Assembly (NCBI GenBank): GCA_022835595.1
Contig: BQUP01000004.1
Coordinates: 620,001-684,000, forward strand
DNA from: Cystobasidium ongulense
Lineage: Eukaryota > Basidiomycota > Cystobasidiomycetes > Cystobasidiales > Cystobasidiaceae
Reading direction: 5' to 3'
Length of the DNA stretch: 64,000 nt
Shown: one piece after another, positions 22,128 through 38,188 of the stretch
Position numbering within the stretch: the stretch's first letter is position 1
How the letters are laid out: each line of letters starts with the position of its first letter
Notes under the pieces: generated by a model
The model's input: the letters and a program-made list of their open reading frames with translations, nothing else
Databases searched by the model: none
What the model was told of the DNA's origin: nothing
Translations under genes and position numbers: made by a program

Positions 22128-24357
<2,230 letters not shown>

Positions 24358-34352: not shown

Positions 34353-34734
34353 TCACATTTGTGCAGTGCCTAAGTAGAAGTAGAGATACTTCGTGCTAGT
34401 AGGACAGTCTCGACTTTGCCCTGTGCAGGCGGGCCGCAGTATCTGACCACAACATCGAGTTTTATACCGACCACAGCGAACAGCAACGTCAAGGCAAGGT
34501 CTATCCAAGTATCGCAGTCGAATGATCTATATACGTCTATATTGCAAGTCTAAGTATGATGTGATTCTAGATAGGGCAGTCTTCGTACTGCTACAGAGAT
34601 AGCTGATATCATGGCCTTTCAACGCGAAGACACTACATGGAAATGTATTCAGCCGGGTTCCTGCATTTCTGTAGGAAGAAGGACACGCCATTTTTCAACT
34701 TTTCCAAGAGGGTATCGGACTTGGACACGCCATT
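34353..34734. other. Intergenic, including downstream copy of a 42-bp repeat
   Basis: The region lies between two minus-strand genes. It holds the 3' flank of peroxiredoxin A, including the extra repeat copy described separately, and the upstream region of the unrecognised nuclear protein gene. No other feature is seen. Confidence 0.4.
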
Positions 34735-34764
34735 CTATAACTTTTCCAAGAGGGTCTCGGACTT
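34681..34764 (-). repeat. Tandem 42-bp duplication across the stop of peroxiredoxin A
   Basis: Two adjacent 42-bp units (34681-34722 and 34723-34764) differ at about four positions. One unit encodes the end of peroxiredoxin A, KSETLLEKL plus the TAG at 34735-34737. The other follows in the same frame and reads NGVSKSDTLLEKLK. It remains open until a stop at 34633-34635. Confidence 0.9.
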
Positions 34765-35786
34765 GGTGACCGTCGTCTTATCGATATCCGGTTCAGATTC
34801 GATATATTCGACGACACCATCCTGGACTATCATTGCGTATCTCTCGGAGCGAAGACCACCGAGCAAGGTCCTGGAGTCACAGCCCATCCCGATAGCCGCA
34901 GTCCACTCGCCAGTATCGTCGGCCAAGAAGTGTAATTTGGTGTCTTCAGCAGCACCGAGCTTCTCCTTCCAGGCTTCCGTGACCTATGGCGCAAAGAAGA
35001 GGTGTAAAATGCGAAAGTCCTTCATAGAGAAGCGTGTTAAGGAAGACTGGAAAAACTTACGAACTGATCGTTGACCATGACAACATATACTCCCTGTGAG
35101 ATGCATTGCCATCAGTAAACAAGCGCGGGGAAGCCCAATAGTACAGCACTAAGCTCACCTTGATACCTTTAGCGATAAAGCGCTTGAGATCTTTCACATA
35201 ACTTGGTATTTGGCAAGAACAAGTGGGCCTGTAAGACGGAGCGATTGAAGTAGGTCAGCCGTTTTCATTTCGCTGTGTTCGGTCAATCTGGACCTCACGT
35301 GAAAGCGCCCGGAATACCGACGATGACGATTCTGCCTGGTATATTGTCGATGTCGACATTGGCTGCTTTGCTAATGATGCAGAGAAGGTTCAGCAACTTG
35401 ACTCGAGGGACAGATGCCTCGTATTACCCACGGCGAATGTCTATAGGAAAACACATTATCAAGGGTCAGGAATACAGCTTTTCGCCACAACGAAGTTTCG
35501 AGAAGAAGACTCACTCTTTGAGCTTGATCCCAGTTGCGAGCTTGTCTCCAGCTTTGGGTGGTACTACTCCGAACCCTAAAGATGCCTGGCAAAAGCGAGG
35601 TATCCAGCTAATGAGCAAGCATATTCCAGGCAATAATTAGCGATGACTTACTTGAACTACGAAATAGATCGGAACACCCGTCGAGCTTGTCAGTATATCT
35701 GAGTACCGGTGCCCTCTCTTCTAGACGAGTGTCACGGGATGGTCGATAGAAAGCGACCCACCTCTCTGAATTGTTTCGATTGCCAT
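34735..35786 (-). CDS. Peroxiredoxin A, PMP20/AHP1 (Prx5) type
   Basis: These thiol peroxidases reduce hydrogen and alkyl peroxides. Exon 1 (35786-35762) reads MAIETIQR. A 5-nt exon at 35656-35652 supplies Val-Gln, and exon 3 from 35585 reads ASLGFGVVPPKAGDKLATGI. Further exons give PTCSCQIPSYVKDLKRFIAK with the peroxidatic Cys in PTCS (about 35210), then VYVVMVNDQFV, a WKEKLG stretch, LHFLADDTGEWTAAIGMG and RSERYAMIVQDGVVEYIESE. It ends TLLEKL at 34735. The C-terminal EKL is not a standard peroxisomal signal, unlike its paralog. It lies head to tail downstream of peroxiredoxin B, with about 50 percent identity by eye, so a tandem duplication is likely. The family includes fungal allergens such as Asp f 3. 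Confidence 0.92.
35652..35656 (-). other. 5-nt microexon of peroxiredoxin A
   Basis: TTCAA lies between a cgtag acceptor and a gtaagt donor. Upstream AGA G and downstream GCA TCT complete ARG-VAL-GLN-ALA. The flanking introns are 105 and 66 nt; the first has atactgac as a branch site. Without it the frame is lost. Confidence 0.8.
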
Positions 35787-36600
35787 TTGTGGTATTAGAT
35801 GTGTGTGTATGAGGAAAGGAGAGGAAAGCAGGCGAATACAAACAGTCTTTTATACATCAAATGCTTCTCAGGTCAAGGTTGGCGTGATGTGTGGCAATAT
35901 ACGGTCAAGCGGGTGACTTGCTGAATAAAACCAAGAAGCCTGCGCCGGACAAGCGGCGGACGAGTTCGGATTAATCTGATTAGAGTATCGGGGGAAGACC
36001 AGTAGTACGACTTTCATCATTACAATCTCCCCCTTATAAGCAGCCAGTATGTCTATAAAGTACAGTCGTGCAGAAAAATCGTACGCCCCCTGGCCAAACC
36101 CAGTCATACTTCTGTATAGTACTGCTGACTGACATGGCGAATGTCGGAGTTATGGAAGCAGTCGTTCGATTAACGGAGCTCGAGTCAGTGTAAGGTCCCC
36201 ACTGTGGGGTTGCGGCTCGGAGTACTTGCCATGACTGCTTCGTACGAGAAAACCAATAACACTCGGGTGGGCCATTCAATGCAGAGCGATGTCAAAGCAA
36301 TATTAAAGAACGCGCGATTTGCTTAACAAGCGCCTCCAGATGCTTGCATTTTCTTGCAGAACCATGTCCAAAAGAGATAAGAGTAGTAATTTCGTCAACC
36401 CACTTAAGGCAGATGGTCTCATAAATGATGCCCCAATCATTTGCAAGGCTTACGTCGACTTTTCATTGCAGATATTTCTAGATAGTTCTAAGGACTCCGC
36501 CCGAGTACGCATCTAAGTACCGATTCTAGAACAAACTTGGTGTAACAGGCTGTTCAATATTGAAGAAATCCTATGCGTAGATGACACCGCTTCTCGGTGC
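35787..36600. other. Peroxiredoxin A promoter and peroxiredoxin B 3' flank
   Basis: These 814 bp contain no gene. Two TATA-like stretches are visible for the minus strand (tttatac near 35850 read on the other strand, and tataaag near 36055 on the plus strand). I could not find a convincing Yap1-type site by eye. Confidence 0.35.
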
Positions 36601-37662
36601 TTAGAGCTTAGCGAGGAGCTTGTCTGCAGCGCTGTTCGTGACCTTTCCATCATCAGGTTCCTATAACGAGGAAGATGAACACATGGACACCGGGTCAGCT
36701 AGGGTGAAGGCAAGCAAATCGAATACTAGATGAGTCCGTCTTACCTGCTCAAGGGCCTCGATAACGCCGTTGTTGACGACCATGGCGTATCGGTGAGATC
36801 GCATGTTACCGAGGAGGCCGGTAGCATCAAAGCCCATTCCAATTGCGGACGTGAATTTTCCCGCATCGTCACTCAAGAACTTAATCTTTGTCTCCTCTTC
36901 GGCACCTAGCTTCTCCTTCCATGCTTGAGTAATGAAGACATCGTTAACGGAAACGACGTAAATGGCCTGTTCAAAACCGAATCAAGGCTTCAACATTGCA
37001 ATGACAGAAGATCTCACAAGAGGACGCTTCCGAACCCACCTTGATACCCTTGGAGAGGAAGGTCTGTAGTTCCTTGATGTATCCAGGTACCTGATTGGAG
37101 CAGGTAGGGGTGAAGGCGCCTAAGAGCATGATAATAAGTCAGAGCTATCTCCTTGCACAGATGAAAGTACGAGCAAATGTACCTGGGACACCAACAATGA
37201 CAATCTTGCCTTCAATGTTGTCGAGGCTGACGGTAGCTTCGACACTACAATCCAATAATCAGCGGAGACTTCGTATAAGATGAAATATGCACAACTCACG
37301 GCGAGTGTCTGATTGATAGTGACAGACAGATGAAGATGCGAAGCCATGAGGTAGAAGAGTCAGCTCTTGCTTGTAGACCTTCCACTACCTGGAAGGTGCC
37401 TTTGAAAGTGCCTCACTCCTTGAGCTTGACGCCAGTCTCGAGCTTCTGTCCAACCTGGACGGGGACAGCGCCGATGCCGACAGCTGCCTGGAAGAGAGGG
37501 CGACAATGCATCCTGTCAGCGCTTGCTGCTGCTGCTTGTAATCTGCTGCTTGCTTGAACCTACCTGGACTATGAGAGACGTGATCGGACGTCAGCAATAT
37601 CCCAGAACAGCCCGATGGCCGGGACAAGCAGAGCGTTTACCTTTCTGAACAATGCTGGCCAT
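36601..37662 (-). CDS. Peroxiredoxin B, peroxisomal PMP20 type
   Basis: Exon 1 (37662-37641) reads MASIVQK. The 5-nt exon TCCAG (37568-37564) adds Val-Gln, and exon 3 (from 37487) reads AAVGIGAVPVQVGQKLETGV. The catalytic region is PTCSNQVPGYIKELQTFLSK (about 37050-37110) with the peroxidatic Cys in PTCS. It then reads IYVVSVNDVFI, WKEKLGAEEETKI, KFLSDDAGKFTSAIGMGFDA and RYAMVVNNGVIEALEQ. The end is EPDDGKVTNSAADKLLAKL. The terminal AKL is a peroxisomal type 1 signal and is the same as in Candida boidinii Pmp20, so a peroxisomal location is likely. It is the upstream member of a tandem pair. Every exon retains frame. Confidence 0.93.
37564..37568 (-). other. 5-nt microexon of peroxiredoxin B
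   Basis: TCCAG lies between a catag acceptor and a gtaggt donor; flanking introns are 72 and 76 nt, each with a gctgac branch site. G plus TCCAG gives Val-Gln, the same two residues at the same place as in peroxiredoxin A. Confidence 0.82.
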
Positions 37663-38188
37663 GTTAAAATGCGTAAGGTGTCTTTTAAGGTGAGTGAAGT
37701 TGATATTTTGCAAGCTTTCTTTTGGGCAAAGGAAAGGTGTGCAAGCAACAAGTTGGGTGTACTCGGCTTCGAGTACCTATATTACCGATACAAGGCCGTT
37801 TTGCCGCGGAAGGCACGGAAATTTCGTAAATAGCCTCAAGCTATCAGCCGAAGAAAGAGTGTACACTGTGTCCAGTAGTTATCTAAATGTAGAACTCGCC
37901 TCTGGTCTACACTGATGCACGCCTTCGTCAGATCTAGTGAGACTGCACTTCTGCCTCAGTGTCGGAATAAAACTGATAAAGAGTATTATTGAGAAAAAAA
38001 CACAGTGTTGAGACACAGACAGATATGACATGCTCAAAGTAGATGGCTCGTGTCAATTGCTGCAAGCTACATAACTAAGACTGCAATGCCGTTCCGTGAT
38101 TTGTTAAGGCTATCCGAAAGGCAGTAATCTACCTCACAAATTCTGTGCTCTACTCCTGGTGGAATCAGGACAGGGTCCCCTCGTGATC
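37663..38188. other. Peroxiredoxin B promoter region
   Basis: These 526 bp hold no reading frame I believe. The part next to the ATG is T/C- and A/C-mixed; no canonical TATA box or repeat was recognised. Confidence 0.35.

Follow-up and report, generated by a model that had tools for sequence, protein, structure and literature searches.

Two tandem neighbouring genes, designated A and B, were located in the window (the whole stretch of 64,000 nt that was analysed) and ran in the same direction on the minus strand, with exons that could be read from the letters. Gene A (35786-34735) comprised eight exons of 25, 5, 71, 9, 72, 70, 33, and 249 nt encoding 177 aa, and gene B (37662-36601) comprised eight exons of 22, 5, 71, 9, 62, 80, 222, and 60 nt encoding 176 aa; with the 5-nt exon 2 included, the frame was uninterrupted from ATG to stop in both, and the two proteins were 60% identical. 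The exons listed below were all supported by the letters and by the gene finder, and exon 2 of each gene and exon 4 of gene A also by shuffles.

35762-35786, minus strand: gene A exon 1, 25 nt, ending in phase 1
35652-35656, minus strand: gene A exon 2, 5 nt (TTCAA), last two bases of a Val codon and a whole Gln codon
35515-35585, minus strand: gene A exon 3, 71 nt
35432-35440, minus strand: gene A exon 4, 9-nt micro-exon, ACATTCGCC
35299-35370, minus strand: gene A exon 5
35159-35228, minus strand: gene A exon 6, with the PTC of the PGAFTPTC motif
35061-35093, minus strand: gene A exon 7
34735-34983, minus strand: gene A exon 8, to the stop codon
37641-37662, minus strand: gene B exon 1, 22 nt, ending in phase 1 at a weak donor, GTAAAC
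37564-37568, minus strand: gene B exon 2, 5 nt (TCCAG), equivalent in place and residues to that of gene A
37417-37487, minus strand: gene B exon 3, 71 nt
37300-37308, minus strand: gene B exon 4, 9-nt micro-exon, ACACTCGCC
37183-37244, minus strand: gene B exon 5
37040-37119, minus strand: gene B exon 6, with the GAFTPTC motif
36745-36966, minus strand: gene B exon 7
36601-36660, minus strand: gene B exon 8, to the stop codon, C-terminus AKL

Both predicted proteins matched the Pfam Redoxin profile (PF08534) almost end to end, with scores of 95.8 bits for protein A and 104.7 bits for protein B against a curated cut-off of 26.6; the match began at residue 21-22 and was preceded by about 20 residues that included the product of the 5-nt exon. 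When protein B was compared with PDB, Prx5-type and AHP1 chains were matched, with 30 distinct sequences at E <= 0.001. A PGAFTPxCS-type motif, which we take to be the site of the peroxidatic cysteine, was present in both proteins (GIPGAFTPTCSCQ and GVPGAFTPTCSNQ), and a like motif occurred in the five PDB alignments displayed (PGAFTPTCS, PGAFTPGCS, and one PGAFTPGSS). Judged by Redoxin score and motif, genes A and B are classified as Prx5/AHP1-type peroxiredoxins. No third close copy was found in a genome search with protein B in which the best candidates were scored: nine of the ten matches at E <= 1 lay in genes A and B themselves, and the remaining one was weak (E 0.58). At 2625391-2625588 of contig C1 of the same genome (G000, locus L003), a weak Redoxin match of 23.7 bits, under the 26.6 cut-off and with one internal TGA in the six-frame translation, was observed, which is perhaps part of another thioredoxin-fold gene. 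Pfam GH32 and 5.8S rRNA had no match in this genome, which is guessed, from intron density, genome size, and general traits, to belong to a basidiomycete, perhaps a Tremellomycete. The C-termini of the two copies differed, being AKL in gene B (36601-36612, minus strand) and EKL in gene A (34735-34746, minus strand). The former resembles a peroxisomal targeting signal, and the location of the two copies may differ.

On the minus strand, nt 35656-35652 of gene A read TTCAA within tag-TTCAA-gtaagt, and nt 37568-37564 of gene B read TCCAG within tag-TCCAG-gtaggt. Since exon 1 ended in phase 1 and exon 3 began in phase 0, exon 2 must be 3n+2 nt in length, and both sequences finished a Val codon and then encoded Gln. 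Being internal, no longer than 15 nt, and bounded by AG and GT, exon 2 of each gene is a micro-exon; its coordinates, frame, splice signals, and conservation between the paralogues are observed features of this DNA. In forms lacking exon 2 the frame was shifted and a stop was reached after 78 residues in gene A and 44 in gene B, and a retained intron 1 or intron 2 brought a stop after 14-24 residues in both genes.

The introns on either side of the 5-nt exons were 66-105 nt long, and their signals were ranked against 435 introns of the training set described below. In gene A, the donor and branch site of intron 1 stood at the 77th and 84th percentiles, and intron 2 combined a good donor (71st) with a branch site of middling rank, TGCTCAT (31st); in gene B, intron 1 had a weak donor, GTAAAC (7th), and a strong branch site, TGCTGAC (96th), and intron 2 ranked at the 63rd and 73rd percentiles for the two signals. 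Gene B intron 2 also contained an in-frame ATG at 37511 (37511-37488, minus strand), from which a possible shorter N-terminus, MHCRPLFQ..., could be read; the counterpart stretch of gene A had no ATG. The original prediction held that a 5-nt internal exon was required at 35652-35656 and 37564-37568, which was borne out by the letters and by a frame open from ATG to stop, and that TTCAA and TCCAG, although different, both complete Val-Gln at the same place after a phase-1 exon, as was indeed seen in the translations. It had further described gt/ag ends and believable branch sites on both sides of each exon; the ends were present throughout and the branch sites agreed in three of the four flanking introns (73rd to 96th percentile), whereas that of gene A intron 2 was weaker (31st).

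A purpose-built, unsupervised gene finder was trained on 264 kb, made up of the window and 20 further 10-kb stretches of the same genome, with 34600-37800 masked and with generic consensus strings as seeds. Training yielded 105 predicted genes and 435 introns, with a median intron of 68 nt and a median internal exon of 132 nt. When the unmasked strand was decoded, both eight-exon models were returned exactly, including the 5-nt and 9-nt exons. This masked version superseded an earlier one that had been seeded with six introns of genes A and B and trained with both genes unmasked; that one gave 108 genes with 449 introns, identical models of A and B, and 348 internal exons, of which 13 did not exceed 12 nt. 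Every micro-exon of 2-23 nt that would restore the frame between the donor of exon 1 and the acceptor of exon 3 was enumerated, giving five candidates in gene A (best score 7.84, next -5.77) and a single one in gene B (11.92). The interior of this region was dinucleotide-shuffled 2000 times per gene, with 8 nt at its start and 50 nt at its end kept fixed. Some frame-restoring AG...GT candidate appeared in 1899 of 2000 shuffles for gene A and 1699 of 2000 for gene B, but the score of the observed exon was reached in none of the 2000 for either gene; thus, a bare AG-N-GT repair of the frame arises easily by chance and signals this good do not, on scores that rest on the same model, the training genes of which are themselves predictions.

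A second micro-exon common to A and B, absent from the original prediction, was the 9-nt exon 4, which encoded the end of a Glu codon, His, Ser, and most of a Pro codon. Equally good shuffles numbered 0 of 2000 in gene A and 181 of 2000 in gene B, and forbidding the exon cost 5.11 and 0.67 nats, respectively. By itself this predicted exon would thus be firm in A and weak in B, and it is backed by the identity between the paralogues. The homology test spoke slightly against it, given that the Redoxin score without and with the exon was 95.8 in both cases for protein A and 105.2 versus 104.7 for protein B, and the AhpC-TSA score was 40.8 versus 39.4 for A and 49.8 versus 47.7 for B. Because the frame is kept with or without these 9 nt, the exon could be optional.

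Over 176 codons, A and B differed with a pS of 0.76, that is, at saturation, and a dN of 0.32, with 54, 35, and 108 differences at codon positions 1, 2, and 3, respectively. Five of the seven intron positions were common to both genes, namely both flanks of the 5-nt exon, both flanks of the 9-nt exon, and a fifth beyond these, with two more private to each copy. In the paralogue alignment, the introns beside the 5-nt exon fell at column 9 in phase 1 and column 11 in phase 0 in both genes, with Val-Gln in both, and the residues Val-Gln-Ala were conserved. The 5-nt exons differed at two nucleotides, both at third codon positions, and the single difference between the 9-nt exons was likewise at a third position. 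If two changes struck a 5-nt exon at random, the chance of both landing on its two third positions would be 1 in 10, so that this argument, with two differences only, is modest alone. Similarity between the two genes was at shuffle level for introns 2 and 4 (z 0.37 and 0.13) and weak for introns 1 and 3 (z 2.6 and 2.1). Because the synonymous sites are saturated, five of seven intron positions are shared, and both differences in the exon lie at third positions, the 5-nt exon predates, on the sequence evidence, an old duplication, in agreement with what had been proposed for its age. When viral contigs were scanned with protein B, nine pattern hits came up, none of them a relative, and a degenerate pattern for PTCSxQ[VI]PxY[IV]K gave no match in prokaryote contigs and none in viral contigs; these collections, consisting of prokaryotes and viruses, have no bearing on conservation in fungi.

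Very short exons were also predicted elsewhere in this genome. Among the internal exons of the masked training set, 9 of 337 were 12 nt or less and 1 of 337 was 6 nt or less; cases noted in the window are listed here, together with one short first exon.

24278-24283, minus strand: Sec61-alpha gene, predicted 6-nt exon 2 (TCCGAT), from the gene finder and protein conservation
24357-24351, minus strand: Sec61-alpha gene, predicted 7-nt first exon, prediction only
46114-46103, minus strand: predicted 12-nt exon of a GDT1-family gene (46276-45073), from the gene finder, family by Pfam match
2734-2723, minus strand: 12-nt exon predicted by the gene finder close to the 3' end of the gene at 4781-2510

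The sole training-set exon of 6 nt or less was exon 2 of Sec61-alpha, the protein of which starts MSFRFLDLVRPF. In the best 2 of 16 PDB sequences matched, the alignments started at query residues 3 and 2 and ran ungapped through LRFLDL, and the form without the 6 nt would begin MSFLDLVRPF, two residues shorter. This predicted exon, in a deeply conserved protein, is therefore backed by protein conservation. The 12-nt exon of the GDT1-family gene is a candidate for a further micro-exon, and that at 2734-2723 is doubted and may be a mis-prediction. The gene at 4781-2510 looks like a pyridoxal-phosphate lyase, and we take it to resemble sphingosine-phosphate lyase.

The reading that we favour, with a probability of about 0.88, is that the 5-nt segments are genuine coding micro-exons, included constitutively in old tandem Prx5/AHP1-type paralogues of an intron-rich fungus, the introns beside them probably being removed sequentially. 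It is supported by the open frames, the masked decoding, the shuffles, the conserved Val-Gln-Ala, the shared intron positions, and the predicted 6-nt exon of Sec61-alpha in the same window. Intron definition has been proposed for basidiomycetes (PMC2397502), and the flanking introns, at 66-105 nt, would each be small enough for recognition as an intron unit. Their removal would probably be stepwise, since 5 nt could hardly accommodate U1 on the donor together with the 3'-splice-site factors on the acceptor; it is the size of the splicing factors that grounds this order. The first ligation would fuse the 5 nt with a normal exon, and this longer exon would then offer an ordinary site for the second. 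The micro-exon would in this way reconcile the frame of a phase-1 exon with that of a phase-0 exon and contribute Val-Gln to the N-terminal extension before the Redoxin domain. Since skipping or retention leads to an early stop, production of this form of the enzyme requires efficient inclusion. We infer that transcripts carry the 5-nt exon, that its use is constitutive, and that the introns leave in such an order.

The opposite reading, that no micro-exon exists, is unlikely. With the 5-nt sites forbidden, the best models spliced gene A to an acceptor lying 10 nt into exon 3, with loss of VQASL, and started gene B at the ATG inside intron 2 (MHCRPLFQAAVG...); they keep intact reading frames in both genes and leave the Redoxin domain untouched. 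The weak donor of gene B intron 1 (7th percentile), the middling branch site of gene A intron 2 (31st), and the in-frame ATG in gene B intron 2 speak against the micro-exon reading. Homology is no test here, because the 5-nt exon lies outside the conserved Redoxin domain, and Pfam could not tell the gene A variant without VQASL apart (95.9 versus 95.8 bits). These models were, however, 9.63 (A) and 8.59 (B) nats worse, require a separate, unshared solution for each paralogue, and offer no account of the matched AG-TTCAA-GT and AG-TCCAG-GT sites or of the common Val-Gln. That the 5-nt exons were gained independently in A and B, or were equalised later by gene conversion, is hardly credible: tandem copies can convert each other, introns 1 and 3 are weakly alike (z 2.6 and 2.1), and recurrent gain of an intron 5 nt from an existing one is possible in principle, but the saturated synonymous sites and the shuffle-level likeness of introns 2 and 4 (z 0.37 and 0.13) speak against recent conversion, and the five shared intron positions favour common descent over independent gain.

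It is also conceivable, although very unlikely, that the micro-exon is real and acts as a switch, by which skipping or retention of an adjacent intron would shift the frame, send the mRNA to decay, and lower the amount of peroxiredoxin; such a role and the favoured reading are not mutually exclusive. A length that is not a multiple of 3 and early stops in the skipped or retained forms, a property common to both paralogues, would fit it, but the same behaviour is expected of any exon of 3n+2 nt, and under intron definition errors are expected as retained introns, not skipped exons (PMC2397502). Because skipping wrecks the frame in both copies, one might go further and regard the 5-nt exon as an ancient gate in a fungal peroxiredoxin lineage, whose splicing efficiency sets the output of an antioxidant enzyme and might be tuned by redox or growth state, a speculation to which we likewise give very little weight.

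Taken as constitutive micro-exons, the 5-nt exons add a further case to a known class. The original prediction placed them near the limit of known splicing, which does not hold, since 1-nt exons with transcript support have been described in plants (PMC8831610) and in Fusarium CYP621A (PMC12940212); the 5-nt exons are likely real members of the class and leave the known minimum of exon size where it was. A micro-exon in a peroxiredoxin was not found in the portions of the literature returned by a search on microexon, peroxiredoxin, and intron, and the available portions of Cryptococcus papers used a micro-exon option in read mapping and described no such exon. What the locus offers is a clean case built from sequence alone: a 5-nt coding exon that outlasted an old duplication, accompanied by a 9-nt exon and, within the same 64 kb, by a predicted 6-nt exon of Sec61-alpha. 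This suggests that intron-rich fungi may routinely have tiny exons close to the start codon that annotation easily overlooks, with wrong N-termini as the result. The region from exon 1 to exon 3 is, in addition, a compact natural minigene for the removal order of two introns 5 nt apart.

Compared with Prx5/AHP1 proteins (PF08534; Peroxiredoxin-5 and AHP1 chains in PDB), A and B fit almost the entire Redoxin profile and protein B matches the chains, whereas the 5-nt exon lies in the approximately 20 residues that precede the match. Among micro-exons, those of plants are conserved coding exons of 1-15 nt, including a cluster of size 5 and phase 1; 1-nt and 5-nt exons, as well as adjacent 5-nt and 12-nt micro-exons in a rice transcript, were confirmed by RT-PCR, and they are often overlooked by annotation (PMC8831610). 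The exons described here resemble them as very short coding exons whose size and phase are fixed across diverged homologues, in this case the two paralogues. In fungi, a 1-nt exon was described in 20 orthologues of Fusarium CYP621A with reads from two species, in a report that also cites exons of 2-5 nt in Arabidopsis, Drosophila, and humans (PMC12940212), and a regulated micro-exon is on record in Trichoderma (PMC11121469). Like that of CYP621A, the micro-exon of genes A and B would restore the frame and was detected through a phase mismatch and comparison of homologues (PMC12940212). It differs from both precedents, the plant exons lying in other genes and having transcript evidence (PMC8831610) and the Fusarium exon being 1 nt long, in a conserved motif, and covered by 18 reads (PMC12940212), whereas here 5 nt in the N-terminal extension before the domain of a fungal peroxiredoxin are known solely from the DNA. 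The P450 genes of Phanerochaete chrysosporium, an intron-rich basidiomycete, have coding exons down to 6 bp (PMC1184071), and genes A and B share with them short introns and tiny coding exons; the family and the size differ, the shortest exon there being 6 bp in a P450 gene and here 5 nt in a peroxiredoxin (PMC1184071).
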